DNA of 64,000 bases from Anas platyrhynchos (lineage: Eukaryota; Chordata; Aves; Anseriformes; Anatidae), in contig NC_092607.1 of the NCBI RefSeq assembly GCF_047663525.1, forward strand, positions 3,257,001-3,321,000. The letters run 5' to 3'. The notes below the pieces were generated by a model. The model saw only the letters and a program-made list of their open reading frames with translations. It was not told the DNA's origin and ran no database searches. Every line of letters starts with the position of its first letter. The stretch's first letter is position 1. The translations under genes and the position numbers were made by a program. This document shows positions 6,801 through 63,700 of this stretch, in pieces.

Positions 6801-9729
6801 GGAAGGGGGATAAAGAGAAACCTCGTGCCCCATTTCCAGCATGGGCCGAGGTGTGGAAGTCATGGCTTAGGGAGAGCATGGGGTCAGATGCTGTGTGTGA
6901 GCTTACAAAAAAAGAGCAATACTGTGATATTTACTACCAGATGTGCACAAATTGCACCATGGTTCCAGCTTTCTCTCTTTTCAATATCCACCTGACACGT
7001 TTACAAGATGAGGCCATGCCCATCCCTCCCTGAACATGTCTTGGTCCCAACTAATGCTACAGTGACTGAGTACGGCCTTCACAGGACAACAAAACGGGTA
7101 CCACAGACTGGCAGCTGGAGGCCCTCCAAATCCTTCTGGATTTAAAAAGGTGGGGACCCACAGAACAGCCTGTATAAGTGAATGTTTTTCACCCAGCCTG
7201 AAATGGGAGAACCGGTGTTTAAAATGACAAAAACAACCCAGAAAGCACCCTCTTGCTAGTACTTCGTTTTCATGGTTTGAAGCTGCAGCAAGCATATTTA
7301 CAGAACAGAATCACCTCCGCTGGTTCAGAACCTGCTCTCCTTTCTCACCTCTCCTCCTCCGCTTGCAGTATCACACAGTCACCAAGTAATTAATGTATCT
7401 GGAGAGGACTCTGGGGAAGTTTCCTCCAAAACAATTAAAAAGAAGAACAAAAATAAATAAGTAAAACAGAGAAGTCCGTGATTTAACTACTCAAAATATT
7501 CCAAATGAAGGACAAAAAGAAAAAGGCTCTGAAAAGCTAAAGCTAACAGACTCATTTATGGAAAAGCATTGCTAACTGCTACCATTCAAGCAGAACATGC
7601 TCCACTGCTCTGGCCACTGAGCAAAATTAAAAAAACAACTTTATCTTTAGAGCAAAAAGGATATTTTAATAAAATTAATATTTTTATTGCTGGTGGCACT
7701 CTTTACCTTGGACTCCTGAACTTTCTGGGCACATTTTATATCTTTTTTTCCAAAAGCCCAAGGGCATTTTCCTTAAAAATGAAGCAGATCCTCATACATT
7801 CAGATAACTGCAGATGCTGGGCCCCACATATCACGCCACTCAGGGAGCCGACAAGCCCGCTGAACATGACATGGTGAAAAATGTTTTTTTACCATCTTCT
7901 GCTTCAAATGCAGAAGAAAACTGGTTGAGTCAGAAGCTGGACACTACAGGATTAGGGTGAAGAAAAGCAGAATTCTCCCAGGGCGTCCCTCTATCTCCAT
8001 CCCAAGACAATGAGAGATTTCCCTGCAAACGAGTCAAATCAGGTGGCTTCTTCAATGGTCTTCTTAAACAATTTGTAAAATGTCCGGGATTTTTTGCTTG
8101 GTTTTTCATCGTTAAAATTGAAATCCCTCAGCTGGAGAGCAGAGGGGCCTCTAGCAACATTAGTAGAGGTTAATTTTCCTTTTACAGAAATGCAGCTCAC
8201 TGGTGCTTGGAATTTGTTTGCTCTTCCTTTTATCCGAAGCCAGGCTGGAGCCAGGAAGGTGGGCTGCACATGCACAACTGGCAGTTCCTAACCCACGGTG
8301 TCCAGCAGGATGATTTGAGAGATGAAGACTGAGCTCCTGGCTTCGTGTACTTGCCATGGGAGATGTTCTCCTGCTGGTGCCCGCTGGTGAGAGGTTTTTG
8401 GCGTTGTCATGGGAACAGCTGTCATCCTCGGGGAACAGCCTCACTGTGCGAGGCTGCCTTTCTGGTTTGCTGTAGAAAGCCATTTTCAGGAGTATTTTGC
8501 CTTGGGTTTCCATTAGTCTTATCTTTCCCAAAACCCAGGCTGTAGAAATTACAGAGATTATAATGATGGATGGTGACAAAGTCCCCAGGCAGTGCTCAGT
8601 ATTTGTCTACACCGTGAACTAATTTTCACTTGCCTGGAAAGTGACCTGATAGCTTCATTACCTTCTACTTAAAAGGCTTACTCTTACTCTCTCTCACACA
8701 CACTTGCATCTTTCCTTTCTTCCTCCAGGAACTCAGTAATAGGATTTGTTTGCTGTTACCCGAGGTGTGGAGGGGAAGCCAGCACACTGCACTGCCCTTT
8801 TTAGGATGTGCTGATGCACCAAGACATCTGCAATGTCTTGTTTCACCAAGTGAGGTAGAAATAGAGCTGCTACAAGGGTCTCTCACGGGCTAATTCTTTC
8901 ATGCGCCTGCATGCCTAGGCTACAGTGACAGAAGCAGAAGACTGGAAGCTCCACCATGCCACCATCACTGGCTCTTGTTAGGTCCTCCTTTACCCAGCTC
9001 TCAGGGATGAGGCGATAGCAAGGGAAGCCCTGACCAACAAGTCACTGACCATAGCAACAGACGATTTTATGCGTAAGCATAGATGTAGTGTCATGGGTGT
9101 CTCACAAGCAGCATACAAAAAAACCACTATTGATTCTCTTCATAATGGTAGGAACAGCTTTCAGATATTTCAGACCTAGCCACATATGAGCCCAGTTGTC
9201 CAAATAACTCACCTTTGATTTAAGAATAAAATGGGTGGTCAATTCAAAATGATTTTTTTCCTCCAGTATTTTCCCTGAAACGATAACTTGAAAATAATGA
9301 AGGGGGGTTGAATTAATTATTTTGACTCAGATTGTTTCAACACGGAAATAAAGATCCAAAATCAGAAATCAATACATTTCACTTAGGAAATTTTAAACAT
9401 TTTAGCATTCTAAATCCCTCTCTTTTCTCTGTGTCCATCTATGAAGACAAATCAGCAAAATGCATGAATTCAAAGCAACTTCAGTCAACTTAAAATGCAT
9501 TTTAGCAAACCAACTCTGAACCTTAAAAAATATAATCGAGATCAGATCCTGTAGCAATCTGACCCAAAACATTACTTCTGAGCAGTCTATCCTCAAACTT
9601 CTCAACTCTCCATACCTTGTTCCACTCTCTTAAGAGACTGAGTCTGCAAACTTTTTACATGTCAAATTTATACTGAAACCAGCTAGAGTTTCCTACAGCT
9701 TCTGCTGGAATAGAACAAAGCATTACAGG

Positions 9730-9893
9730 AAGGAAGGGAGGAAGGGAAGAAGGGTGGAAGGGAGGGAGGAAGGAACAGGGGAGAAAAAAGGAAGGAAGGA
9801 AGGAAGGAAGGAAGGAAGGAAGGAAGGAAGGAAGGAAGGAAGGAAGGAAGGAAGGAAGGAAGGAAGGAAGGAAGGAAGGAAGGAAGGAAGGAC
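9730..9893. repeat. (AAGG)n purine microsatellite
   Basis: About 26 uninterrupted AAGG units run from about 9788 to 9893. They are preceded by about 55 bp of degenerate GGAA/GGGA repeats from about 9730. One strand is wholly purine. This is ordinary slipped-strand simple sequence; the Phe-Leu-Pro-Ser and Glu-Gly-Arg-Lys open frames across it are by-products. Confidence 0.97.
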
Positions 9894-11422
9894 CTTTTAT
9901 AGCTCACTTATTCTCAAGACACTGAAGCAGGAGCATACTCTTCAGTTTCAGCAAGGGTTGGGGTCAAGGAGGCTGTTTCATACCATTTACATGTGGCAGA
10001 TGCCAATCATCATTTCCTAAAAGATCCACAACCAAATGGTTTAATGTCAATACTAAACATTTGGCAGCAAGTGTTATGACAAAAGTCTTATACACAAATA
10101 TAGTACAGTGTCGCTTAAGTACTCAATAGAAGAAAGGGATTGCAATTAAGGTGCTTTAAGGTACCACATAATTTCATTGATTATAATAAATGCTTCTCCC
10201 ACTTGACAATATCATGTATTGTCCAGTACAGACTCTTCCCACCTGGTTGGTTCTGTTATTATAGGAGAGGGGCACCAGGGTGAACACTACATTTGGAACA
10301 CTGATTTTTTAAGCCTTACTAAACAGAAATTACATCCTTTAGTGATTCAGTATTCATTTCTGAAAGCATGTGATATGAGAAGGGGTTCATGTTGTCAAAA
10401 GTTGAGTTGATTTTGAAAGTGAAAAATGTTTCCAATAGCAGGCTTCATTCTGCTGCTGAAATGAGCGGCTGCCTCCTTAGGTTCTTGTGGCCCAATACAG
10501 AGTTTCTGCAGGATAAAGAAAGCCTTCCAGTGACTAAATGCTACTATGATTATGTATCTCTGGCAAGAAAAAAAACCTGACTTCCAGCTTGATAGACATT
10601 CCTCGTTGCAAAAAAAAAAATATGCTGCACTCTATTTATTAATTCATAAGCCATTCCTCAGCGGATCACATCCCTCTGTTCACAAGCCAGTGAGTTTTCC
10701 TGAGCAGACCACAAAGGCAGATTATGTCAGACAGTGAAGCACAAGCTTTTTTTTTTGTTAATCCAGTTACTCTGGGATGAGATCACCCCACCGTGAGTCA
10801 TTAATTCACACAGACAACTTGTAACACACAATAAGAAGCGAAGCCTTGTCCTAGAATCCCTACTGCACTGCCCAGGAGGCATCAAGAGCTTTTAGGCCTC
10901 AGCACCATAGTACACATCTATCTATCCATCTGAAGCACTTATCCTCAGTGCCCCGTAAGCTTTTCACAAAAGCCAACATAGACTCTAGGTGGGTTTCAAG
11001 ACCCAAAGAACAGGCCTAGACTACAGATGGACTTGAGCATCAAAACTTTCTTCTGAACCCACCTCCAGCCACTCAGCTGGGTTTTGATGAATGTAATCAC
11101 CTAGATGCTTGCCACTGCAGCACTCTGCCACAAGCCTTTTCTGTGCCTGGCCTTCAGGTTATAATTCTTTTAAGGAGATTCAAAGTTATGTGTACATTAA
11201 AAGAAATATATGCTCTTCTGCATACTGGTAGGTCATGTTGATCGACTTCCTTCTGCAAATCCTCAATGGTTATGGAACTGAACAGCAGTGACTTCTCTTA
11301 CCTGCTGGAGCACAGGAGTGGACAGCAAAATTGGCTGGAACAAATTAAGTAGGGTCAGAAACTAAAGAGATGGCACTACACAGGTTAATCAATTTCACAC
11401 TGGGAGAACATCTCCAGTCTCT

Positions 11423-18300: not shown

Positions 18301-21300
18301 GGACACACCCACACACTATGGAAATGCTTACATGTGCAACAGCATGTGGGGAAATAAATTAACAAGTATTTGGCTACTTCATGCTGTAAGCACAGTTCTG
18401 GGAAACTCTACGAGCCATTCACGGGAATGGCAGCTCTCCACAAGAAACAAGTAAACCATCAGAGACTACAATACAATTCTGTGGAGAACAACCACACTGC
18501 AAAGCTGTTCGAGAGGGCTGATAGGATGAAAGATAACCTTTCGTATCAGCACTGTGTTGCTGCAACTAACGACCCCAACTGGGAAAGAAGAGGACTGGGA
18601 AGGTCAATGCCAGCCCTCTGTGTTTGGGGCATCAGCCTGGAGGCAGTTCAGCATACACAAAGGCAGCTGTGTCTCAGTGGGTAAAAGGCAACAGATAGTT
18701 TTCTGCACAATCCTGTCTGTACCTGTGCTGTGCAACTGTACTACAGAAGAAAATGGGCAGCATTACAGCCAAAAGGAGCTGAAATAGAAGGAGGAAGAGT
18801 TTCTCAAAATAGCAGATTTTGTCCCCTTAGAATTTATTCCATTTACACAGAACAGTGCAAACAGCACCTGTTTCCACTTCTGATACCAAGGCATTATCCC
18901 TCAGGTCAGCAGCTCTCAGCAACACTTCTGGGGGCTCAGCATTAACCCTCAGAAGCCAACAATAGCCATAACATATTTCTATTCCATGACGCCTGTCTCC
19001 ATTATACAGTTAAAGACTGGTCCTCAATGATATACATAGATAGAAAATAAACCCTGGATCAGGAACACACTGTTCTCTCTCATAGAAACTAGCATGGACC
19101 AAGGCTCCTGTAAGGCTGGTGTTACAAGTTTTCCAGTGAGTCTCTTAAGGAAGAGAGACATGCTGGTCTTAACACTGGTTAAAGAAGTAGCACAGAAGTT
19201 TCATCTGTCAGGATTGCTGAGCAGACACATCACACGCCAGCATCCACAGTCTGACAGCATTAATTCTTATAGAGGGGCCACCAGTCCATCTTATTTGACT
19301 CTTTGTCCTAGCTAAGTCCACTGCTTCTTAACTGTGCAGTATACCACACATGCTTATAGTAAAGATGCATGTATAAATATTAAATATGGTCTGTGGTTAG
19401 GAATCTTTTCAGGAAGCAGTCTAACTAATGACAGCCACAAAACTTTCAAGAGCTCCTTGCCAGACATCCTGCCATGAAGACAAGCACTGAGCACTCCAAC
19501 TGGACATTGAGAAGAGCTGAAGTGACTGGTCTTTGGTCTACTGATCACCCGATCTCAACTCATGGCATCACTACTGTTTAAGATCTGAATTTCAGCCTTG
19601 TACTGGCCTTACATCAAGGCAGTCCAACAACTTTAAAGTCCATTGCAGATACTGCTGTTGCTCAGGGGAGAGCAGCACCCTGCTCTAATGAAGTGCTCTT
19701 GTCCTGATGGTTCTTATCAGCATGATGCTGGGCCCTGAACTGCTACCAGAGAGATGTTCAAGGTAGAATATGACTGTGTCACTGTGCTGCATCTCCAACT
19801 TACCCCACTCTTTCATTGCCATCATCTGCAGCTCTTTTTTTCCTCGCTTTTCCAAACCCTCCTGTTGTTATTAACGCGGGGACTGCATATATCAAAGAGA
19901 AAAAGTACACAGAGTAAGTGATAACAGCACACTGAGGCTGTCAATGTCTGCAAAACAGTGAAGATGGACCTTTAATCTCATATGGTTTTATCTTTGGCAG
20001 GAGAGGAAAACAAATATAACTTTGTATTTTCATATTATCAGTGACCACCAATCATTTCATTGAGAAGAGAATCTGTATAGCTACTATATTTTTGCCTGAG
20101 TAAAACAAACCTTTGCATCTCTGGAGTAAGGCACTCCCAAAAGACAGAGCAGGAGGCAATATTCACTTAATGCCAACTCTCAAGAGGATTGGAAAAGCCA
20201 GTTGTAGCTAGAATCCAGACTGGACAGATTTTGACCCAAAAATAACAGTAAAAAAAATAATGAGCAGTTCTTCTAAAAATCAGCAAATGTATGTCATAAA
20301 AAGTTAACCAGGACAAACTCAAATCAGGTATTTCTCCACAAAGCAGCAGGAGGTTTACTCTGCATGCACTCTGTTCCAGTGCAGAGAAGTCATACCTTGC
20401 CTTTGATGGGTATTGCTCCTTCATGACTTTTTACAGATGACTCATTCATTACAAGAAAAAAAAAAAAGTGCTCAACACTCACTTCCAGAAGTTTTAAACT
20501 AGCATTAATCTACCAACTCTATCGAAAGTGCCAGAGATTTACAGTTGTATAAGTGAGAACACAACAGGTCTGTAATATTTCACTTTTGAAACACACCAGA
20601 CCACAGCAAACGGCAGGTGCTATTTTTAAATATTGTCCCAGGAAGGATATCTCTAAACCCCTGCATGAAGAGCTCAGTTCTCAGTTACACCAGACAGGCC
20701 CAGAGCAAATCTGCTGGTGTCTCAAAACAGCTCTTTTCAAATACAATAAAGACCAAGTCTGCTGGCATAAACAAGAGTCCTACCCCTATCACCAAGACAC
20801 TTACACTTTCAGCGGACTTACTCAGGTACTGTTTGCACTCTGTTCCTTGTTCTGTCCAGTACTCCACGCAGCCAGCCCTCTCCTCCAGAGGAGGGCATAC
20901 CTCTCCTCCATTCCTGGGCTCCTGGATGACATGCCTCCTCCGAACACGGTATGTTGTCTTGCAAGGCTCTGCACAGCCACTCCAGACGCTCCACTGAGAT
21001 ACAACACAGGGCATAACTGGAAGAAGAGTAAGAAACAGGAGTGTAAAACGTTACAGAAATGAGGCAAGCAATGCACCTTCTCCAGAAAAGACACTTATTG
21101 ACACAGCTCTGTACAACCTTCCTTTCTTCACAATTGTCCCAAAGTTGTGCCAGGCACTTCCCAGTAGCTCTGTTCCCAGGAGTTATCTGGCCAGAAGTTC
21201 CAGCCAACCAACCCAGTCCAAACTACATGGGGCCACTCACCTCCCTCTAGCTATGCTGCTGCAAGCTTCCAATGCAAACTGGCACCTGCACTGAATGAAC

Positions 21301-24300
21301 TGTCACACAGAAAATGACAACCAGCCATGGAGTATGGACCACTGCATGGCTGGCTGGAGTTGATGGCAGAGTTCTAGAAGTGAAATACAATACAATAGCT
21401 TCCAACTTGTACATGTTGGTACCAATTTCAAGACATTTATCCATGACTTTAAGTTTTGGGAATCTTTAGTAAGTAATGCATCAAAAACCTTCATGTCCTT
21501 GAGCATCCCTACCTGTTCTCACACAGTATCTTTGGTGCCAAAGTCCAAAGCTTCGGCTTACAAGCAGCTGCAGAAACGTCTCCCCTTAGCGTTTAATATC
21601 CCATTCATTCACTCTAAAACACACCGATATCATTCCCTATGTCACATATCCCCTTTTGTGATCTCTTCCCCGTGAGCGTGCCCATAGTTGAGCTTCATAG
21701 GACTGCACGTCTGGAGAGAGCTATCCAAAATAACAGAGGAAGTGCTTGAGAGCACAACAGCATTCACCTGCTGGCCTCTCTCAATGGCAACCTAGTACAA
21801 TAGCTCATGATATACTACATCAATTGTACGTAACCAACACAACCTAAACATGAAAAACAACACATCCAGGAAAAAAACACTTGCAGGTAAGCCCAGTCAA
21901 AAAATTCTACATCCTTTGGATCTACATAAGAAATACAACTTGAGGAACTCATGCTTTGCTCAGATATGCCACCAGCAGGACTATTCACTCAGCTCACTTC
22001 TGATCACATTCTGCCTATTCCTTCATAGCCTAAGTGACTGGACAAAGAACTGTACCTTTTCTTGGTATTATCCACAGAAGAATTTTAGATTTTAAGCAAA
22101 CACCTTGGCAGGAAAAAAAAAAAAAAAGGGAAATTTGTATCGTTACTCCCAGGTCATTGTTGCTGATGTGGTAGGTCTGATACAGCCACACAGGGTACCA
22201 TAGGTGGGTTTAGCATGCGTGTATTCACATTTTCCACTGATTCCAGTAACTACTGCTTTTGCAAATATTTAGGCAGAAGTGCAATTCCTGTCCTCCCTGA
22301 GCCTTTCATCTTCTTGGGTGGCGCTTTCAACTAGCAAACAGAATTTGGAATGAGCACAAAACTCTTATGAGGACCAAGTGAATGCAGCGAGCCTTCCGCT
22401 GGCAAAGGGAGAGCAGGGGGACATCAAGGAGCACCGTCTAGCTTCACTGTCCCTGCAGCACTCCTGAGAAAGAATTCTGTGATGCTAAGCCATACATTTA
22501 TTATCACAGCATAGGAAGACTACGTGCACACAACTGCCGAAACATTTTACTGCTTCTGTGTCCACTCTGTGTCTGTGAACCACACCATCTGACCTGACTT
22601 AGCAGAAGGCCACCAGTATTCCAGCCTTGGCTACTCTGGCATCTCTTTCTCCCGGCAGGACACTGGCTGGCCTCCACTGTAATTGTGCCTGGCTAGCCCT
22701 TCTGCTCAGGAACTCCTGACAGGTATCAGTGGGAACAGAGCCTCACATGCCTTTTGTAATTAACTGTGCCTCACAATTCAATCTTCCTTGCCTGGCTGAA
22801 ACAGTAACAGGAGCACACAGGCACAGAGAAGCTGGGATGTCACTGTTTTGATTGCATCCCTTCTTCCCTCATGTCTTCAGAAACTTTAGGAAGATTTTTC
22901 AAATGCTCTTCTTTTTTGTCCAATGGCACCACACACAGTTTTTAAACCTATTCAAAGATTTATCAATTATCTGAGACATTTCATATTTGCAGCAATGTAC
23001 CACAAGAAAAGCCTGTGCATCAGCTTGTATGCTGTACATTAAAATCCTTTTGTGCATCACATTTATTTTGAATCTTCTGCTCTTTTCAGTTTCATTTGGC
23101 CTCAGATATTAATGTCTTTGCCTTCATATTTTGCTTTAAAGTTAGTTTGATAAAGTAGCTCTGTAGCGATTGGACAAAAAGAAAACTACAGAAGAAAGGC
23201 CAGGCTACAAAGACAGAAGTCAAAGCAGAGTTGGGTCCCTTCCATGCAGCACAGAGGGACCACAGGCAGCAGGGCAGCAGTATCATGCCATGCACAGAGC
23301 CAGTCCCCCAGGAACCATCCGAGCCGGCAGGATGCTGCCGTACCGCCGGCATGCCACAGGACGGCACCGCCGAGCACCGTGCGACACCAGGGACACCACG
23401 GGACTGGAGCCGTGACTGCCCTTTGCCATTTCCTCATGAGGTGTAAGCACCTGCAAACACATTTCTCTTAGCACCCTGCTGTAACACGAACGGGGGGCGT
23501 GAGGGGTTCCTACTGATGCCAGCTATCCCGGCGGACTGCCGAAAGCAGCGGGAGCTGAGGAGAACAGCCAGCAGGGCCGGGGCACTGCTGTGACAGCCTG
23601 GGGCCAGGCCGGCATGCTGCAGGAGGGTCCCATCGCTGTCACGCTCAACGCTGCCAGCTGTGCCCGGCGGCTGGCAGTGGTCTCCTTGTTCACAGTTTGT
23701 CTAAAGTGCATCGGGATGATCTGATTTCCTTCCAGCTTCGGGATATCTCCTACCTGCCTTCCAGCTCTTTTTTGAAAGGAAAAAGGCAACTGAATCACAG
23801 GAACATCAGCCTGAAGCAAAACCGTGCAAAAAGGCACAGCCATGCAGGCTGGAAAATAAAAAAGCCATTATGTGGGGGGATAAGTCTCCTCGAGGATTCT
23901 ATTTGTGGGGAAGGGATATGGGATTGCACCACTCACTAAAATAACTGATCTCCCTAATACACACCTGTACTTTACCAGCAGACATTTACAAAGGCTCAGC
24001 AGCACGGGCTCTGCAGGGCTGCACGGATAAGCAGGAGCAGTGGGTTTGATCCCATCCATCATCATCAGCCCCCAAAGGCACTGGGACGGGACATCTGAGT
24101 TGGGAAACGTCCCATTTCACATGTGTAAACCCGTCAAGTCACTTAAGCTCCCCTTCACCACTCGGAACAGCCGAGTGAACTTCTCTCTTCAGGGTTATTT
24201 TGGGGCTCTGCTCCCACTCCAGCTCGCCAAGGCAGGCACGCCCATCCCTTCCACCATTCCCACACCCATCATGACGCCCCCAGCCCATGGCACCTGGGCA

Positions 24301-24662
24301 CCTCCAAGCCTTGGTGTGGAGCAAAGCTCCCCGGTTCAGCCACCCCACATCCCCTCTCACCGTCCCCACACCCGTACCTGAGCCGTGCCCGGTGCGGGAC
24401 ACCTTGAAAGAGGACGGGCAGCGGGGCACCGGGGGCCACACTCACCTGGGCAGGCCCGGGCATAGTCGTGGCAGCAGTCGAGGGTGTGCTCGCACGCCTG
24501 GTCGCAGTAGCAGGGCCCGTAGGAGCCGTCGGGCCGCCAGCCGGTGCCCAGGCAGGACGGGTCTCGGCCGGGGCAGCACAGCCCCAGGGCGGCACAGCCG
24601 GCGGCGGCGCGGCGGGGCAGGGCCAGCAGCGCCAGCACCAGCGCGGCGGCACGGCCCGGCAT
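12253..24662 (-). CDS. SBSPON: SBSPON, somatomedin-B and thrombospondin type-1 domain protein (whole coding span)
   Basis: Five minus-strand exons join into one open frame of 261 codons plus stop: 24446-24662, 20822-21016, 19804-19882, 17267-17443 and 12253-12370. Every internal boundary has GT/AG and the phases match (1, 1, 2, 2). Length is close to the roughly 264 residues I remember for human. Residues 1-21 are a signal peptide (Leu/Ala core), about 22-72 a Cys-rich somatomedin-B domain, about 74-135 a thrombospondin type-1 repeat (WSVWSGC, RVRRR, GGEVCPPLEERAGC), and about 164-261 the conserved Cys-containing C-terminal region ending HSFLFI. The family is secreted extracellular matrix protein; its molecular role is poorly defined. 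The start has a GCCGCC Kozak context and lies in a CpG island. An RKKR basic site falls at residues 151-154. Confidence 0.96.
12371..17266 (-). other. SBSPON intron 4
   Basis: A 4.9-kb intron with GTAAGA donor and TTTCAG acceptor. I see no coding exon, repeat family or structured RNA in it. Short A-rich and CA/AAAC-rich patches are the only simple sequence. Confidence 0.75.
17267..17443 (-). CDS. SBSPON: SBSPON coding exon 4
   Basis: Residues 164-222. After a TTGCAG acceptor the frame reads YCVEFQLVAITPAC, then HWMQYLREGHTVCVECQHPA and LHCYGDGSGSK, a strong match to the Cys-rich C-terminal region of SBSPON. It ends AAAAA followed by GTAAGA. The first base completes the GG carried over from exon 3, giving Gly. 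Confidence 0.96.
17444..19803 (-). other. SBSPON intron 3
   Basis: A 2.36-kb intron (GTAAGT to TTGCAG) with no supported internal feature. Confidence 0.75.
19804..19882 (-). CDS. SBSPON: SBSPON coding exon 3 (79-nt small exon)
   Basis: A short linker exon found by looking for the conserved PALITT motif. The acceptor is ATATGCAG and the donor GTAAGT. It encodes residues 138-163: IPALITTGGFGKARKKR, then an acidic stretch. It restores the frame between exons 2 and 4, which do not join directly; that is strong evidence it is real. It contains an R-K-K-R tetrad, a possible proprotein convertase site. Confidence 0.93.
19883..20821 (-). other. SBSPON intron 2
   Basis: A 939-bp intron (GTAAGT to TGCAG). 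An A-tract at about 20454-20466 is the only repeat-like element. Confidence 0.75.
20822..21016 (-). CDS. SBSPON: SBSPON coding exon 2 (thrombospondin type-1 domain)
   Basis: Residues 73-137. The frame opens after TTCCAG with VMPCVVSQWSVWSGC and carries the TSP1 hallmarks: the WSxWSGC tryptophan/cysteine motif, RVRRR arginine ladder, the conserved CPPLEERAGC block and a final Cys at TEC. The donor is A followed by GTAAGT. A long plus-strand open frame across this exon is an antisense shadow. Confidence 0.97.
   Translation of the reverse strand, partial: LCPVLYLSGASGVAVQSLARQHTVFGGGMSSRSPGMEERYALLWRRGLAAWSTGQNKEQSANST
21017..24445 (-). other. SBSPON intron 1
   Basis: A 3.4-kb intron from GTGAGT (24445) to TTCCAG (21017). 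There is an A-tract near 22112-22127 and a moderately GC-rich patch at 23,280-23,660. I see no exon or known repeat in that patch. Confidence 0.7.
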
Positions 24663-41467: not shown

Positions 41468-43310
41468 CTGGGGAATATCAGCAGGTACAAGTCCCAGCTA
41501 AACACCTTTTGCTTGAGGATATGTGAAGAGTAGCTAGACTGCCACGAGATTGAGACCCTTTCTCCTCACTTGAAGCAGCAGGCAGCTCCACACAGTGACC
41601 ACACAGAAGCACTGTTGCAATCCAGCTCCAAACCCAACAGTTAGGAGATCCAGGAATTGGGTGTTAAAAGGTATGGAAGACAACTCACTCAGCTGAGTTC
41701 AGAGTACTCAGGTTTTATTAAAAATAGGCCCTAAAGAGTACAGAAACAGACCGCACTGCAGCATCCAAATGCACCTTCCTTGCTTCACATGCAGATGATA
41801 CTTTACTAAAGCTTTCAGAGTGACAGGGGAGAACCAAGACTTGAATTCCCTCCTTACACACAAGGCCATCATCCCATACATGAGAATAGCTCTTTAAGGC
41901 TTCTATACTTTGCACGATACTGACAAGGTAACATTAGTTGCCAGGTGAACACAGACATCCCTCACAGACAAAAGCACCAAATTATGTTAAACATACAAGT
42001 TCCAGAATCCATTCCGATTAAATGTCTCATACAAAGGAAAAAATATAACACCCTCCATCTGTGAGTTGGCAAGACACCAATTTATCATTCCCTGCTAGCT
42101 CTGAGAAAAGACCAAAGAGCTGTTGCAGGATGATGTGGATGCTGTAGCTTGAACAAGGGATCACAGGCAGCAGCATGGAGAGTAAGTAACATCATTAGCA
42201 GGAGACAGCTTTCACCTAGAACACTGAAATCACAGCAGGTCCTGGGACAACTTCTGACAGATCTTAACCTGCCAAGAAAACACCCAACATTTTGTCAGTT
42301 GACTCTATATCAAGCAGCAAAAACACAGCTTTTAAATTCCAACCCCACCTCCCCCCCCCCAAAAAAAAAAAATTAGACAAAGGCTATTCTGCAAGCAACC
42401 ATAAGAACCCCTGCACTGTTAAGACACTCCAAATAGAATGCACTTGTAGAACTGCATTTTGGGGGCTTTCAGAGTTGTTCTTGAACAAAGTCTAGGGGAA
42501 CTCACTGAGAAGAGGGTGCCAGAGTAACAGATTTGGTCAGCTCTACCAGCTTCACCACCTGACACAGGCCAATCATGCTGCTGTTCAATTTGAGTGTGCC
42601 ATATAGAATGGTCACATCTGTGCTCTCCACAGACTACTGAGGAGACTTCAGCCATATTAAAACTATGAACAGCTGAACACCAAGTACCTAAAGAGCAAGA
42701 CCAAGCTGTAACTGAATGAAGCCAGTAACAATAGCTGCTTATTTAATGAAGCAAGATTGTTAAGCACATTTTATAGAGCATTAGTGAAATCCTAACCAAA
42801 TAGCCAAGTTTTCAGTAGACAGTTGATCCTTTGTAGAAAGTGAAGAAAAAATACCAAAAGGAATCCCCCTCCCCCAGCCACATTTGCTGAAAACTGACTT
42901 ATCAAGACTTCTAAAGCATGGAGAACTTCTCATTGACAGAGAAAAATCTAGGAGAACAAAGATTCCCTGACTTTATATGAAGCACTTAATTTTATCACTG
43001 CTGAAGTAGGGCAAAACAACAAAAAAACTATGTTTATGTCATTTATGTTAAACTGAAACCTGCCAGAAATCTCAGCCATTTTTGTTACTGAAGATCTTCT
43101 AAGAGCAAGAATTCTTTCACTTTTGATCTTCAAGTCTTTTATGCATATCAGATAGTGTTACACAATAAGTGTTACTAAGGTATGTGCAGACAGCACCCTC
43201 CAGTGCTGCCTGCCCTAAAAGCATGCAGCATGCACAAGGATTCCCTGCCCACAGGGGTGCAAGGACAGGTAGCCTCAATACAGAGCCAGGTGACAAACTG
43301 AGTTTTGCAT

Positions 43311-43402
43311 CTGTGGCATCAGACAAACTGGCTAAAACAGAAGTTCGAATCAGCTCTGCTGATCTGATGGGGAAAAAAGTTTGAAGTTATCATATACCAC
43401 AG
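43311..43402 (-). ncRNA. C/D-box snoRNA, diverged fifth copy (E)
   Basis: Same length (92 nt) and order as the four identical copies, but with many changes. Terminal stem CUGUGG/CCACAG (43402-43397 with 43316-43311), C box AUGAUAA (43393-43387, a variant of RUGAUGA), D box CUGA (43322-43319). It keeps the ACUUUUUUCCCCAUCAGA block. The variable middle forms a different short hairpin (AUCAG/CUGAU, 43363-43349). It ends 66 nt before the exon 6 acceptor. Stem pairing is kept with changed sequence, as expected for a functional paralogue. Confidence 0.68.
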
Positions 43403-43959
43403 ACAGAGAGAGACTCTTCAGTTTATTATCAAGGCACTCCATTACATTCGGAAAAATATTTCAGGCCCATAAAAACTGACAAGGCATATTACTCTCCGCA
43501 GGCAAGATGATAAAAGAAACAGTATTTTAACAGGTGTAATTCTCAGGTCAATAACTAAGAAGTATTTTCTATTCTCCTGAGCAATTGTCTTTAAGAGATC
43601 ACATCACCACAGCTTCTAGGCTGCTGCTGACTCACAGCTCGATGCTGTTCATTACCCTCACTTGCCACCTCAAACACGCTGTAAGAAGGCAAACATGAGG
43701 CAAAGGGCTCCTGCTACAACACTCAGATCTATGTATCAGTCAAAATTTCAGGGCAACAACTTACCATTCTCTTCTGCCAAAGGAAAAAGTAAACAGTGAA
43801 GCAAACCAGGCCAACTCGCCGCACTGCTGGCTCCAGCTATCACTTCAGCTCTGCAGCAGGCCCAGCAGCCCCCTGCCATCACACAGGCCTAGGAGTGAAA
43901 CCAAAGGAGCAGTCAGCACCCAGCCCCACGAGGCCAGCACACACAACAGCTCTGCCCTT

Positions 43960-44051
43960 GCTGGTGCATCAGACAAGGCCTGGCTAGAGCAGTGACAACT
44001 CAACACTGTCGCTCTGATGGGGAAAAAAGTTCAGTCATCACCTACACCAGC
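43960..44051 (-). ncRNA. C/D-box snoRNA, copy A (intron 4)
   Basis: A 92-nt element closed by a perfect 7-bp terminal stem (GCUGGUG 44051-44045 with CACCAGC 43966-43960). C box GUGAUGA is at 44041-44035 and D box CUGA at 43972-43969, both set just inside the stem. An internal hairpin (CAGUG/CACUG extended by GAG/CUC) separates the two halves. Its 3' end lies 71 nt upstream of the exon 5 acceptor, the spacing typical of intronic C/D snoRNAs. Target unknown. Confidence 0.82.
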
Positions 44052-44594
44052 GAGTCCCTGGGGTGTGATATGGCCAAGCTCCCACCCCCCACCGTGCACA
44101 GACATAGGGAACAGTAAGCTAACTGCAACGGAAGTGGCAAAGCCACATACATGCAGCCTACGATGAACACTTCAGCAGTGACACAGTGCACAAAGGGCTT
44201 TGGTACAATGCTTCTGCAGGAGGAAACCCTCTGTGCTCTCAGCTCTGCAATGCCTAGGCTAACACTTGGATTATACACAGCAGTCTCCAAAGACACAAAC
44301 TTGCCAAAGCACTTCTGAAGCAGCTCCCTGGCAGGAAGGAGTTTGGTTTTTCTAAATTTACATTAGTGATCAACAAGAAGGACTTAAAGACTCACCTGCT
44401 CAAGGTTCAGGCACTGTGAAGCAAACCAGGCAACTGCCCTCATCACACATCTGATCCACAGCTGGTTCCAGCCATCGCTTCAGCTCTGCAGCAGGCCCAG
44501 CAGCCCCCTGCCATCACACAGGCCTAGGAGTGAATCCAAAGGAGCAGTCAGCACCCAGCCCCACGAGGCCAGCACACACAACAGCTCTGCCCTT

Positions 44595-44686
44595 GCTGGT
44601 GCATCAGACAAGGCCTGGCTAGAGCAGTGACAACTCAACACTGTCGCTCTGATGGGGAAAAAAGTTCAGTCATCACCTACACCAGC
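44595..44686 (-). ncRNA. C/D-box snoRNA, copy B (intron 3)
   Basis: Identical over all 92 nt to copy A. C box is at 44676-44670 and D box at 44607-44604. It lies 71 nt upstream of the exon 4 acceptor. The 5' flank differs from copies A, C and D at two nearby positions (GGCAATATCACAG in place of GGCCATATCACAC), while the snoRNA body does not. Confidence 0.82.
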
Positions 44687-45287
44687 GAGTCCCTGGGCTG
44701 TGATATTGCCAAGCTCCCACCTTCCCACACAAATCTGTGGGGAAATTCATGCAAATCCTTCCCCACAAAGAACTGCCTGGCTGGACTGCTCAACAGGCAC
44801 AGGGGCTAACACTGCGGGAGCCCAGAGGAAAACACAAACAGGGTTTCTGCAGCACAGCAAGAGACTGCTAAATGCAGACCCAACAGAAAAGGGAGGCAGG
44901 GATAAGAGCTCATACGCTTTTTCAGGTCCAACTTTCATGGCCACATGAAGTTTCCTGCCTTCACACTGCAGAGACAGAAGATTGTGCATGCAGCACAAAG
45001 TGCTGTACAGTCGCCAAACCCCAGGCAGAGGAACTAGCCCAGGCAGGACCACAGCATGCCCCATCCTGTGACCGCTGCTGCATACCTACCAGCAAGGGGC
45101 AGAGCAGAAGAGCAGCACCAGCCTGTTCCTCTCAGCAGGCAACATTTGCTACTAACTCATACATAGACCTATCATTTTCCACAAAGCTCATCTCCTTTCC
45201 CTGAAATCACTAATATATCCATGAACACACCAAACATTTGCAAAACATTTGAGGAAGGGTCCATTTGAGTAATCCAGCAACTCCCTT

Positions 45288-45317
45288 TTATATATATATA
45301 TATATATATACACACAC
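45288..45317. repeat. (TA)n(CA)n microsatellite
   Basis: About eleven TA units followed by about three CA units, inside intron 3 of the snoRNA host. Confidence 0.95.
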
Positions 45318-45577
45318 TTTTTTTTAATCCAGTAACAGATACAGTCAACTTAAGGACTTACCATTCACACCCATCAGGGGTATCAGGGGTTCAGGCACAA
45401 CAGAGCAAACCAGGCAACTGCCCTCAGTGTAAGGCTGATCCCAGCCATCTACCACCATCGCTTCAGCTCTGCAGCAGGCCCAGCAGCCCCCTGCCATCAC
45501 ACAGGCCTAGGAGTGAAACCAAAGGAGCAGTCAGCACCCAGCCCCACGAGGCCAGCACACACAACAGCTCTGCCCTT

Positions 45578-45669
45578 GCTGGTGCATCAGACAAGGCCTG
45601 GCTAGAGCAGTGACAACTCAACACTGTCGCTCTGATGGGGAAAAAAGTTCAGTCATCACCTACACCAGC
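45578..45669 (-). ncRNA. C/D-box snoRNA, copy C (intron 2)
   Basis: Identical over 92 nt to copies A, B and D. C box is at 45659-45653 and D box at 45590-45587. It lies 71 nt upstream of the exon 3 acceptor. Similarity to the copy A unit extends a further 200 bp on the 5' side. Confidence 0.82.
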
Positions 45670-45889
45670 GAGTCCCTGGGGTGTGATATGGCCAAGCTCC
45701 CACCCCCCACCGTGCACAGACATAGGGAACAGTAAGCTAACTGCAACGGAAGCGGCAAAGCCACATACATGCAGCAGCCCCCTGTGAACGGTCCAGCAAT
45801 GATGCAGGTACAATGCTCTGGAGGAGGAAACTCTTTGTGTGCTCAGCTCTGCAATGCCTAGCCTAATGATTAGATTATACATAGTGACA

Positions 45890-46388
45890 TGGTGAAAACT
45901 CAATAACCAAAGTTATTATGCAGGTATTCTTTATTACTGTGCAGAGCATGTGGGGGATCACTCTGCCTAAGATACACACCAAGAGTTATAAGCAGTGTGC
46001 TTGTATTCATGGAATAGATACATATTCACTTAATTTCTGAGTCTCTTGCATATTCATTAGGTTTCTAAAGAACCAGTAACATAGGTTCCTGCCCCTATTC
46101 ACATGTGTACTAGAGTCCTTGGGTAGTCACCCAAAGTATGCTACTCTGGATAGCTTTTGATGAAGACCAGTAGTCTTCCTCACTGCTAAACTTCTGACCC
46201 TTCCTTTCTTTGGCAGACCTCAGCAGTCCAAGCCAGTTCTTGCTGGTTCTATCATTTATGTGCAGTCTTTTCATTCCTTATCTTTAGGATTGTCCTGTCC
46301 TTTTAGTTGATATACAACATACAACTGCGTTAGCTAAAATTTGCAAAATAACATCCTGTATCTTGTTCCCTGTCTCACTCTCAGCTCT
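45890..46388 (-). mobile_element. Probable LTR fragment in host intron 2
   Basis: About 0.5 kb interrupts the similarity between duplicated units. On the minus strand it ends with an AATAAAGAATACCTGCAT run and a short T-rich 3' part, the layout of an avian retroviral-type LTR (U3 long, poly(A) signal near the 3' end). I could not define clean TG/CA ends or target-site repeats, and no internal viral genes are present. Confidence 0.4.
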
Positions 46389-46736
46389 GCAAAGCCTAGG
46401 CTAACACTTAGATTATATGCAAAGTCTCTAAAGACACAAACTTGCCAAAGCACTTCTGAAGCTGCTCCCTGGCAGGAAGGAGTTTGTTTTTTCTAAATTT
46501 AAACCAGTGATCAACAAAAAGGACTTAAAGACTCTCACCTGCTCAAGGTTCAGGCACTGTGAAGGAAGCCAGGCAACTGCACTCAGTGTAAGGCTGATCC
46601 CAGCCAGCTCCATGCGCTGCTCCAGCTCTGCAGCATGCCCAGCAGCCCCCTGCCATCACACAGGCCTAGGAGTGAATCCAAAGGAGCAGTCAGCACCCAG
46701 CCCCACGAGGCCAGCACACACAACAGCTCTACCCTT

Positions 46737-46828
46737 GCTGGTGCATCAGACAAGGCCTGGCTAGAGCAGTGACAACTCAACACTGTCGCTCTGATGGGGA
46801 AAAAAGTTCAGTCATCACCTACACCAGC
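46737..46828 (-). ncRNA. C/D-box snoRNA, copy D (intron 1)
   Basis: Identical over 92 nt to copies A-C and located in the first intron, about 290 nt after the 5'TOP exon. C box is at 46818-46812 and D box at 46749-46746. It lies 71 nt upstream of the exon 2 acceptor. Confidence 0.82.
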
Positions 46829-46859
46829 GAGTCCCTGGGGTGTGATATGGCCAAGCTCC

Positions 46860-47480
46860 CACCTCCCCAGGGAGCTCCACGGGGACCAGAGGAGCCCAGG
46901 CCGGGACCCCCAGCACGGAGACGGGGACACCAGACGGGGAAGCGATCCGAGAGGAAACCCCTCAGGGACGGGGTCGGGAAAGGGCGGCCATGCCGCCACC
47001 TCAGCGGGGGGCAGCGAGGCGGCACGAGCAGGAGCCCGGCCGAGCAGGGGGCATACAGCTGAGCGAGAAACCCCCCCTCACCGCTCACCCCTCAGGATCC
47101 AAGAACCCACCTTACCTCAGCCACGCGGGAGCAAGAGGGCGGCCAGCCCCGCGCACCCGGCTTTATGGGGCCGCCGGGGCCCGCCCCGGGCCCGCCCGCA
47201 CGGAGGCGGGAAGGCGGGAAGGGGGAGCCGCCGCCATGTCGGGAGGTGTTGCCCGGGCCTGTCGCTTTCAGGGCCGTGCCTCTGCTTCCAGAAGTCGCCT
47301 CGGATTGGCCGTGGGTCCTGCTTGCGGCCTGGCGAGGCGCAGGGGAAGCGATCGCTTGTTCCCCGCTCCGGGGTGGTAAGAGGCAGAGGATGGAGGTGGC
47401 GTGAAGGGGCCTGGCCGCCATTTCGCGCTGCAGCCAGCGCCGGGTGTGCAGTGACTTGCCCGTAGGTACGTGCAAGCGGA
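46860..47480. promoter_or_regulatory. CpG island, possibly bidirectional
   Basis: About 0.6 kb of GC- and CpG-dense sequence. The minus side carries the snoRNA host start. The plus side shows a CCAAT motif in reverse (GATTGG near 47,302), an ATG in GCCGCC context at 47,236 opening only 47 codons, and a GTAAGA donor near 47,377. A divergent transcript is possible but not established. Confidence 0.7.
47116..47240 (-). promoter_or_regulatory. TATA-like, 5'TOP promoter of the snoRNA host within a CpG island
   Basis: On the minus strand CCATAAAG (47168-47161) lies about 25-30 nt upstream of a pyrimidine run CCCTCTTGC (47139-47131), the expected start of a 5' terminal oligopyrimidine transcript. 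The donor CTGAG/GTAAGG follows 24 nt later. A GCCGCCATG element (YY1-like in promoters of translation-machinery genes) sits at 47,230-47,238. Known snoRNA host and ribosomal protein genes share this design. Confidence 0.65.
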
Positions 47481-48599: not shown

Positions 48600-51105
48600 T
48601 CTTACATCTGCAGGGTAGTCTTTTGAGCTAAATATAAGAGTTGAACAATCAATTCTGCAATACCGAGCTCTTGGCAAGACTAGCTCTAAATCATGCTCCG
48701 TGACTAATTTTTTTTTTCTGTTTGTAAAATACACATTGGTTACAACAAGATACGAGGCAGAGCTGTTCAGTCACACACTCTAAATTGTATTTAGTGTTAA
48801 TCCTGTGTGACTTTTAATATCCTTGCTTAAGCAAACTGTTAATTTGATATCAAACTTCTGCTAACTGAAAAGGGATTCTGTGGCAAGGGAACCAGATCAA
48901 ACTTACTGCATGATAAATATGTCTTCTGGGATCAGTGGAAGGGGTAGTTTAAGGATGGTGCTTGAAATGTGATGAAAACAAGAAAAGATATGTAGTAAAT
49001 TGGTCAGCTAATTTGCAAGCATGTCCAAGGCTCTGCAATTCTGCTTCAAAAAGCCATACGAGATACTTTAAACATTCTGAAACAAGTAAGCCTGTATTGT
49101 TTTATTAATCTTGTCTAGTAGTATCTACAGGCATTCATACTGTGCATACATTTGTAGGTATTATATAGCACATTTGGCATAACAATGTGTAATTCAGCTG
49201 CCACAAAAATGCTCTTTCCAAATGAAATGTGTTCGTAGACAACTAATTCTAGAAAACAGCTTATCAAACAGGACTTGTGGAATAAATTTCAATCTCATTA
49301 ATCCAAGTTCCAGAACACCAGGAGATGAAAAGACAATCATGGGATGGATATTTTAAGAAGATTACTGGGAAAACTAATCTTGTTATAGTATAGTGCAAGC
49401 CCACATCACATGTACAATTCAAAAGGAACTGTAAATGTGATTTGCGTTCCCTAGCTTGGCAGGGAAGGAAAAGTGGGAAGGTCTGGGCTGTTAAGCAGCT
49501 GAAATCAAGCTTAGTGTCAAATTTATTTGATGTCACTGTTTTTTATTCCCTTTGGCAGAAAAATGTCAAAAAAACTCATTAGCTAGATGAATTCTTTAAT
49601 TCAGGGCTCTTTGTATCCAAGACTCATGAAAGTTCCTCAACTGGTGGCAAAAAAAAAAAAAGTCATAATATAAATCACAATTCTCCTTGTGTTTTACCTG
49701 CACAGGAATCACTTCCATAGCCCACTGTTGGCCAGAGCAGCCAGCCTGTGGAAGCTTTGCTTCACAGACTTTGGCTAACGAGACACATCTCCCAAAGGAC
49801 AGCACACACTGCTCTCACGCAGGGTGCTTGCTCATTGCATCCAAAGGCAACAGTTGTGCCTCTGTAGTCTTGTGTCCTGTTTGCCTTTCAATTATTTCAA
49901 CGCCACCAGTAAGACTCATGCAGGAGCAATTGCATTGTCAAACCTTACTAGGAGCGGCCAAAACTAAAGTGATGGTTAAAAAGCAGTTAGTCACATGCTT
50001 TTTTTCCTTTTATTTATTTTTAAACAGTACTTGACTTCTGAAGAACACTTTTATATCATATGGCAGCCTTCACAGGCATGTCTTTGACTTCTACACAGAA
50101 CACTGAGTAATGGCATGCACACAGTCATTGTTTTCTTTAGTGTCCAGAGGAGGGAAAACTTGATGAATAAAAAAATACTTCTGAATTGCTAAAAAAAACT
50201 TTATTAATCTAATGGAATTATCTAAATATTTAATATGCCAGTATCTGCTACTGCTACATTGTTATGTTCTGCTTTTTAAATCTGAACTGGATATGAAAAA
50301 AAAAAAAAAAACAAATTTTAATTGGGATGCAACCTCTGACTTCCCAACCTAATAACCTACACTAAAATGCTAGCACCAGATGCCTTTGATATTCACAAAA
50401 TTTCTGATAAATTATTATTTTCCAGCATGAAATGTTGTGGTAGAAAAAAAAAAGAAAAAAAGCATCAAGAATTTCATGAAAACTCCATTGGGTCAGCAAC
50501 TTCCCTGTTCAGCACTATGAAAATCAAAATATAACAGTCAGCACACTGACAGGGTATTGAAAAAATCTGAGCATCTGCCAAGTCATACACACTGGCCTTT
50601 TGGAAATATGAAAAAATCCAAACACACAAAATTAATAGAACGTATAAAGGGTCAGTATGAAAGAGACCACCATAGTTTTGATTGTGGAGCCAGACAATTT
50701 CTAGCCTGTAGCTAAAACTAGAAATAAATGAAGACCAGGAGTAGCCCAACTGAATTTCAGCAAGAGACCCAAAAATGAGACACACTGAGATTTGCCAGTT
50801 TAATAGAAATCTTTTCAACATAAATGAAGTTTATTTTTTTTTTCCTATAGATTGTCAACAGTTTCCTTCCCAAAATGATAGAAATGGATCACAACCCCAT
50901 TGTGACTGTAGTAGGAACCTCAGACCTGTTTGTGGTAGCAGATTAAAAGGTCAGCAGCTATTGATCACCAGGGACACAAAACACTTACATGGAGAAATGC
51001 CAACCTTGATTTTCTGATGACCACAAATCTTCCCAAAGACGCTGTGGTATTTTAGGGTATAACTGTTACAGCAAGTCTTAGAGTAAGCCTGAGCACTCCG
51101 CCTTG
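48600..51105. other. Intergenic, AT-rich, no gene supported
   Basis: A-tracts lie near 49,650-49,661, 50,296-50,311 and 50,443-50,460. Minus-strand open frames of 90-115 codons have no domain. Nothing else was recognised. Confidence 0.55.
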
Positions 51106-60700: not shown

Positions 60701-63700
60701 TAAAACTCAGTACACTTTGTAGGTAAAGTAAAATGTTTACATGAACTTCAGCTTAACAAACAGCTTCAGAGTACAGTGCTAAAAAAAAAAATTAAACATA
60801 CAAGACATACTAGTTTGGATAGCTTTGGAAGAACTATTGTAGATCTGTACATTTACCTGGATTCCTTGAACATTGGAAAGATAGTCCAGCTGCTCAGAGG
60901 GCCTAGTAAGTGGTCCGTGGGGTACGTGGCCTGATGAGTTGTTATTTTTTAATATGGTCTCAGCAGTAGGAGAAGTACCACCATACAATAGCTCTCTAGC
61001 AATCATTGCTGTTACGGTAGCCTTGGCAGGATTTGGGGCTGCCCTATTGAATTCTTTGGTGTGGTGTCCTTGATTGGCTCCTACAGCTTGTGCAACCTCA
61101 GGGACCATGGGAAGAATTCCAGCGGGAAGCTGCTGGTGACTGAGATAAGGCATCCTAAATTCGTCTTCTTTATTACCTGCAGAAAGGAGAGGTACCATCA
61201 ATACAGAGTTTGCTAACTGCGTAAATGATTCAGTGCAACACCTGCTTTTGCCAAAAGGAGCACATTGACATCCGGGAGCAATTTCTCCACATTAGTCAAG
61301 CTTACAGACATCTCAGACAGTTGCAACCACATTCTAGATGTATCTTTTGGTTTCAGAATCATTTATTGCATGATTTAAATGGTAGGAGCAAATAATAACA
61401 CCACAGAATGGCTGGAGCCATGGTTAAATATTGTAAAGACAGTAACAATGTAGCCCACAAAGTTTATACCATATATAATGAGAATGTAAACAGGTAGGTA
61501 AGATTAAATGTAAACTTAGCACAGCATGAAGCAGCAAGAAAATATCCAACCACCATCAACTGATACCAATTCATTGATCTTACAGCCTAAATTAGTTTTA
61601 AGAGGGATATCAGCAGCTTTTTCTGGGAAACTCATACATAGAACTGTGGCAAAAAGTTAGAGGTGTGCTCAAGAAAGATGGCAAAGACAATGCCACCAAA
61701 ATAAACAGGAGTCAGTATTAGGGCTGAATAGATAAGTGAAGTTCAACAGGACTGAGCTGCCGCAAGACTAAGAATGAAAGACAAAACTGGTAGATGGAAG
61801 AAACGAAGAAAAACAGGAGTGATAGCAAAGTTTGAGTAAGGACTCAGGAATTTTACCTAAGATTTTATGAATGCATGAAAACATTACTAACATCCAAGTC
61901 AGTCAATCCCATTTGTTTATAATGTGAACAACAAAATTATACTAAAAGAAACACAGCATCTGAAGTATACTATCCAAGACAGAATTATTTTGTCATTGAC
62001 AAACTTGCTATGACTCCTTTCAAGTTTACATTAGAGAAATCAAACTCCTCTATGCTTGGTGGCCAGGATTTTTTATTTGTTTCTTTCCAGCCAATTATCT
62101 GTAGATCCAATCACTGTAACAATCAACTGTCTGAAATAAATGCAGGCACAGATCCCTGATTTCAGGCATTACAGGCCAAGCACAGATGAAGAGGCTGTTC
62201 TGTACTAAAAGGCCATTCCTTCCCTCTAACTCTACTTTAGGAAGACCAACTTCAATCAGCAGTGACAACCTTTCCCATTTTCATCCCAGGAATAGTCTTC
62301 AACACAGTGCAGTTATTCCCTCAATTCCTGTAAGGTGATGCAACCAAATGTAACACAGCTAACTACCAAATTCAGCAACATCCTCCTCCCATTGCTACTC
62401 TTCTTCAGACAGGGAGTAGCATTTCTGGGGCATTCTTCCAAGCCGCAACCGTTCTTCCAAACCTGGAAGGCTGTTCCCAGGTTGCAGAAACACCAATCCT
62501 TTTCCATAGAATCTGCTTCCATCCTCATTTAGACCCTACACCAGAGAAACTTTCTCTTGAGTCAAAGAGGCTGATCTCTCCTCCTCCCCTTACCTTTTCC
62601 TCTCACAGAAATTGCCTCAACTTCATTTCTGCTTTTAACAGGAGAAGCTGCTTCCCTGGACAAGAGTAATGCCTGGTCCTGAACATTCTTGCACTAGAAA
62701 GCCCTAGACATCAATTAAAGCTTGCCCCAAGACTCTCCCACTCACGGTGAGAGAAGCCCAGACACTACAGGTAGGAGCAGCCGCACTGCCACCAACTGCT
62801 TGACTGACACATTAGCACACACAGGCTTCTGGATCAGCCAAAAGCTGAGCAGGAGACCAAGCAAGCCAAATACTGTACTACTTGGGAGAAATAAGCACTT
62901 TGGTATTTCAGCTAAACCCTGGCATGGTATAGATTTAGTTTGCAGGCCAGCAGTTGCACACCTCTGCTCATTATAGTATGTTAAATGACACTACTGAAGG
63001 GACTGAGAAACATGTCTTACATGCCAACAGGGCCATGCTTCTTTCAGGAAGGTTACTTACTAGTTGAAGTTTCTTCAGAGCCTGGCTCAAAGAAGGTTAC
63101 TTTTCTTCCATCACCTGGTTTCTTCACTGGTGTCTTGAAAATAAAGAAGAGAGACCAAACAACATCCCTTAAAAAAGCTTTTCCCAAGTTTTCAAGATGT
63201 AGGTGATCTATCAAAATTTTACTTAAGAATTTATTATTCAAAAACCTCAACTATTACATAGCCATCAAAAAAACAAGTTCAGTGATCCTTATTCACTGAA
63301 TGAATAAAACTGTCTACAGACTATCGCAGTGTTATTAGGAACACAGATGTTGAGAACTTGAAAAAGTTACTTAAGCTAACTTTAACATTGCTGATAACAG
63401 CATGCATTGGACACATACATAAAAAGGAGAAAATTAAACCAGACTTGGTATTTTAACTCCACAGTAATATCTGCCGAACCAACAGATGAAGAAAGAATGC
63501 AAGGCTTTTTCATGCTAAGGACCCACCAAAGAAAGAGACCTGTAACAAGCTTTTGTCTGCAAATATTCATAAGGCTATCTGAAACTATTGCTACCACAAA
63601 ACCCTATACAGCTTACATGTTCTCAAGTTTCTAAGACCAAATACATCAGTTATTCACAGGTTGAGCCATTCTGTGAAGAATACATTCATTTAGCCTTCTG

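Follow-up and report, generated by a model that had tools for sequence, protein, structure and literature searches.

We investigated a 64-kb window of the genome of the duck Anas platyrhynchos (contig C21, positions 3257001-3321000, in an assembly of 1.26 Gb and 42 contigs), and found that it very probably carries an array of SNORD12 genes, which encode well-known C/D small nucleolar RNAs (snoRNAs) that assist in ribosomal RNA modification, with one copy in each intron of a single host gene. When the entire window was scanned with Rfam, five matches exceeded the curated cut-off, all to RF00581 (SNORD12/SNORD106; gathering score, 43 bits) and all on the minus strand. Four of the five copies scored 83.9 bits (E = 6.2e-17), and the fifth scored 62.5 bits (E = 5.1e-11). 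A preliminary description of this DNA had proposed five C/D snoRNAs, which the scan confirmed for every element; it had not recognised the snoRNA, which belongs to the known SNORD12/HBII-99 family.

Copies 1–4 are 92 nucleotides (nt) long and mutually identical, whereas copy 5 is 94 nt long and divergent, so that the initial count of five 92-nt elements stands for four of them. In the RF00581 alignment, all five copies line up at the closing stem, at the D box and at the two conserved antisense elements. Copies 1–4 have the C box UGAUGA, the D box CUGA and antisense element 1 upstream of D′, and their stem pairs are unbroken in all four cases. Copy 5 retains element 1, the UAGCCAG core, the D box and the closing stem, but its C box reads AUGAUAA instead of the consensus UGAUGA, a point against the array reading. 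A closing stem, C box and D box had been attributed to each element; the stem and D box are found in five of five copies, whereas only four have a C box of consensus sequence. The distance from the end of the snoRNA to the predicted 3′ splice site was 71 nt in each of copies 1–4 and 65 nt in copy 5 (43310 vs 43245).

A host model of six exons was built from splice signals, by eye and by pattern (Table 1). Its five predicted introns are 450, 1032, 838, 507 and 520 nt long, with one snoRNA in each. At the predicted start, the sequence is in keeping with a 5′ terminal oligopyrimidine (5′TOP) motif, in which a C heads a run of pyrimidines; it would read CCCTCTTG if transcription began at 47139, the position given previously. 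A TATA-like CATAAA is located at 47167-47162, 25-30 nt upstream of the predicted start. Splice signals and start sequence thus agree with the earlier proposal of a 5′TOP host gene holding one snoRNA per intron. Between 43244 and 42300, AATAAA was absent, but a single ATTAAA (42747-42742) was present, along with several TATAAA/CATAAA variants. The host gene presumably has no coding function, and four open frames from the host region had no Pfam match; on the other side, joining the exons, with the last one truncated at 42600, gives ATG-begun open frames of 43, 50, 87 and 99 codons.

Table 1. SNORD12 copies, predicted host exons and the SNORD12-like element on another contig (positions in the window unless a contig is named)
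Feature	Position	Strand	Remarks
SNORD12 copy 1	46737..46828	-	predicted intron 1 (47115-46666); RF00581 83.9 bits; 71 nt to 3′ splice site
SNORD12 copy 2	45578..45669	-	predicted intron 2 (46538-45507); RF00581 83.9 bits; 71 nt to 3′ splice site
SNORD12 copy 3	44595..44686	-	predicted intron 3 (45361-44524); RF00581 83.9 bits; 71 nt to 3′ splice site
SNORD12 copy 4	43960..44051	-	predicted intron 4 (44395-43889); RF00581 83.9 bits; 71 nt to 3′ splice site
SNORD12 copy 5, divergent	43310..43403	-	C box AUGAUAA; predicted intron 5 (43764-43245); RF00581 62.5 bits
Predicted host exon 1	47116..47137	-	pyrimidine-rich TOP-like start CTCTTGCTCCC, G-interrupted; start site inferred from sequence
Predicted host exon 2	46539..46665	-	splice signals CTCCTAG/ and CAG/GTGAG
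Predicted host exon 3	45362..45506	-	splice signals CTCCTAG/ and ATG/GTAAG
Predicted host exon 4	44396..44523	-	splice signals CTCCTAG/ and CAG/GTGAG
Predicted host exon 5	43765..43888	-	splice signals CTCCTAG/ and ATG/GTAAG
Predicted last host exon	42742..43244	-	3′ end guessed at ATTAAA (42747-42742)
SNORD12-like C/D element	C17:2149800-2149887 (L006:1501-1588)	+	RF00581 39 bits (cut-off 43); BRD2 intron

We calculated duplex energies between the antisense elements and a 51-nt fragment of 28S ribosomal RNA, with 500 mononucleotide shuffles per element. The fragment is a provisional sequence and not the species' own, which weakens any statement about the target. With this provisional fragment, element 1 would pair over a block of 11 base pairs, one of them G-U, with an energy of −17.7 in copies 1–4 (reached by 11/500 shuffles) and −17.5 in copy 5 (4/500), and element 2 of copies 1–4 gave −23.0 (8/500). 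These predicted duplexes support the pairing of copies 1–4 with 28S. For copy 5, and for the SNORD12-like element in an intron of BRD2 (see below), the predictions were mixed: element 2 of copy 5 gave an unremarkable −16.5, reached by 61 of 500 shuffles and a further point against the array reading, and the BRD2 element gave −18.3 (40/500) and −15.4 (11/500).

We infer that the array is transcribed, spliced and processed, and that its products would act in methylation and perhaps as a chaperone, along the following lines. Each intron, once spliced, would be debranched and trimmed to a C/D small nucleolar ribonucleoprotein carrying an RNA of 92-94 nt. Element 1, upstream of D′, would pair around human 28S G3878 (chicken G3388) and direct 2′-O-methylation. 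The antisense element upstream of D, element 2, would bind the 28S segment next to it and might chaperone folding there, a role that has been proposed for yeast snR190.

The growth of the array can be partly read from its repeats. A repeat finder detected a 300-nt unit that is present four times with 85-99% identity to the reference copy, whereas the copy 5 unit was linked to the other four by a 32-nt core only (84%). The idea of a gene built of duplicated exon-intron units therefore fits four units and fails for the fifth, beyond that core. Among copies 1–4, pairwise identity was 100% in the snoRNA, 97-100% from there to the 3′ splice site, 82-100% in the 44 nt upstream of the snoRNA and 79-93% in the first 68 nt of the exon; farther out, it ranged from 11 to 79% upstream and from 36 to 79% downstream. 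Copies 2 and 4 have upstream intron sequence in common (79%), and introns 2 and 4 start alike (112 nt at 94%); these similarities therefore suggest that a pair of units was duplicated, yielding copies 1-2 and 3-4. In-place duplication of exon-intron units would thus have enlarged the array, with the core around the four near copies staying alike. This homogeneous core fits gene conversion as well as recent duplication with selection, which are indistinguishable here.

The literature contains close counterparts. In chicken, GGgCD57 (human HBII-99, yeast snR190) has four copies in introns 1-4 of the expressed sequence tag (EST) BU281079, with 28S-G-3388 as the target and a 12-nt guide at D′ (PMC2653536, 2009). 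HBII-99 is the SNORD12 family, and the copies likewise occupy successive introns of one EST-defined transcript, whereas the duck array has five copies in introns 1-5. In human, SNORD12, SNORD12B and SNORD12C are located in consecutive introns of ZFAS1 and were aligned with snR190 and snR107, sharing the same two antisense elements (PMC11971394); the three expressed members have a single host in common (PMC8178906), SNORD12C has been tied to 28S Gm3878 (PMC7243338), and ZFAS1 variant 4 carries a 5′TOP (PMC5117590). The duck host resembles ZFAS1 in the snoRNA family, in the layout of one copy per consecutive intron and in its TOP-like start, but holds five copies as against three. Yeast snR190 has been described as a pre-60S chaperone that does not guide methylation (PMC8536666), and fission yeast snR107 guides the equivalent methylation (PMC11971394). 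Both have two antisense elements of the same kind, but their genes lie beside U14, unlike the several copies spread over the introns of a host gene in vertebrates. Placental mammals are reported to show a trend to lower C/D copy numbers, which was disputed by a reply printed alongside (PMC3349704). Because chicken has four copies in one EST and human SNORD12/B/C lie in consecutive ZFAS1 introns, most of the apparent novelty of the array falls. It is an ordinary, slightly larger cluster, with one copy more than reported for chicken.

The neighbouring genes place the array more precisely. The array had been described as lying between SBSPON and STAU2, and the latter label is wrong because the Staufen exon in the window (60782-61291) matches human STAU1 (4dkk) at 110 bits, versus 45 bits for the Staufen gene on contig C2, which reads like STAU2. 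The left neighbour (window 20688-24662, minus strand) has a TSP1_spondin exon that scored 57 bits, above the cut-off, and a weak Somatomedin_B match of 19.4 bits (cut-off, 23.1), listed only when the threshold was loosened to 0.1. This pair of predicted domains fits SBSPON or a paralogue. The SBSPON-like gene may be a paralogue lost in mammals, because human SBSPON lies near STAU2, whereas the gene here shares the window with STAU1.

With STAU1 adjoining the array, the host gene probably corresponds in birds to mammalian ZFAS1. Human ZFAS1 lies near STAU1 on chromosome 20, in a STAU1-ZNFX1-ZFAS1 neighbourhood, on a chromosome segment that includes STAU1, DDX27 and KCNB1. One SNORD12 per consecutive intron is a feature of ZFAS1, and the host model here likewise assigns each of the five copies to a separate predicted intron. 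The preliminary description recognised no human host gene at this position, yet for this snoRNA a human host, ZFAS1, exists. Several observations weigh against the assignment. ZNFX1 is on the same contig at 18540454 (18.54 Mb), about 15.2 Mb from the window, and an Rfam search at E up to 0.1 on three ZNFX1-side stretches (L035-L037) gave no match. Additionally, a looser guide-pattern scan of 20 kb on the 5′ side of ZNFX1 gave three matches, none in a snoRNA-like setting. ZFAS1 is antisense and head-to-head to ZNFX1 by its name, definition and map position; such an arrangement is absent here, because ZNFX1 is so distant and no SNORD12 was found in the stretches searched beside it. This separation is the point that still stands out in an otherwise low-surprise locus.

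These observations could also mean that the host is not orthologous to ZFAS1: in the lineage of birds, SNORD12 would have moved into an unrelated gene with a TOP-like start near STAU1, with the mammalian ZFAS1 site being separate. The distance to ZNFX1 and the lack of SNORD12 found at its 5′ side favour such a move, and the sub-cut-off element in the BRD2 intron, if real, would show SNORD12 in a further host. However, the two hosts agree in snoRNA family, one-per-intron layout and TOP-like start, and the array shares a contig with ZNFX1 and adjoins STAU1, which in human belongs to the neighbourhood of ZNFX1 and ZFAS1. Moreover, duplication inside a single gene is reported to account for nearly all snoRNA paralogues of chicken (PMC2653536). 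We therefore consider independent relocation unlikely. Orthology with ZFAS1 remains the favoured reading of the host. A fuller scenario is possible rather than probable: this bird counterpart, separate from ZNFX1, would have expanded to five SNORD12 genes that share a homogenised core, accompanied by a sixth SNORD12-like gene in a BRD2 intron. The host gene could then do without the antisense arrangement with ZNFX1, and selection in birds would act separately on the dosage of SNORD12.

The copies themselves allow two other readings. Some of them, copy 5 above all, may be decaying pseudogenes, with stable RNA coming from one to four copies only; the non-consensus C box, the lower score (62.5 vs 83.9 bits) and the readily matched element 2 pairing of copy 5 are in line with decay, but the conservation in this copy of element 1, the UAGCCAG core, the D box, the closing stem and the 65-nt gap to the 3′ splice site is not, and we regard decay as a minority possibility, albeit a little less remote than relocation. 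Alternatively, the units could be a dispersed repeat with a chance snoRNA-like core, as the fourfold 300-nt unit with its 85-99% identity might suggest. A genome-wide RF00581 search, which addresses the snoRNA part of the unit and gives a lower bound on matches since 57 of 109287 first-look candidates were scored, gave at least the five window copies and one sub-threshold element. The search thus showed no sign of the dispersal that had been raised as a check on the array, and a dispersed repeat is very improbable.

The sub-threshold element is located on contig C17 (Table 1) and ends 95 nt ahead of a 3′ splice site. The exon that follows encodes a BET domain and best matched the solved human BRD2 (178 bits, vs 158 for BRD3). 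The guide of the element, CCUUUCCCCG, forms 10 pairs with the target site in the provisional 28S fragment, and 40/500 shuffles equal it. In a control search of 14 well-known genomes, one (Sulfolobus acidocaldarius) also matched RF00581 below the cut-off, and sub-cut-off matches are therefore weak evidence of membership. The element may be a copy of SNORD12 that sits in a new host, BRD2. SNORD12, BRD2 and snoRNA were not found together in any paper of the literature searched.

The present results correct the place of the array (STAU1, not STAU2) and supply its missing name (SNORD12), and they offer a bird-versus-mammal comparison for ZFAS1, a host long non-coding RNA studied in cancer. We noticed no described bird counterpart of ZFAS1 in the literature beyond the chicken table, which does not by itself show absence from print. 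If the duck locus is that counterpart, a position antisense to ZNFX1 would be dispensable for hosting SNORD12.

Other origins of the host were considered and rejected. For an RPL7 relic, tblastn of the RPL7 protein on the window gave a best E of 1.4, with one of two hits in host intron 3 (45030-44926); for an RDH10 relic, the same approach gave E = 0.006 over 28 residues, at a plus-strand site (50857-50940) that does not fall in the host gene. An ohnologous copy of ZFAS1 on the STAU2 side was rejected, as the gene in the window is STAU1 (110 bits vs 45 for the C2 gene). In the 200 kb around the C2 Staufen gene, a guide-pattern scan allowing up to 2 mismatches (20/20 stretches, 209 N) had no hit, and Rfam on 15 of the 20 stretches gave no match. 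Elsewhere in the window, at approximately 9700-9900, open frames of repeated KEGR face frames of PSFL on the opposite strand, presumably reflecting a short purine-rich tandem repeat. In line with a bird genome, to which the assembly size and the chicken match of the array also point, a 234-codon open frame on contig C2 (33200561-33201262, in L030) reads like part of an avian CR1 reverse transcriptase.

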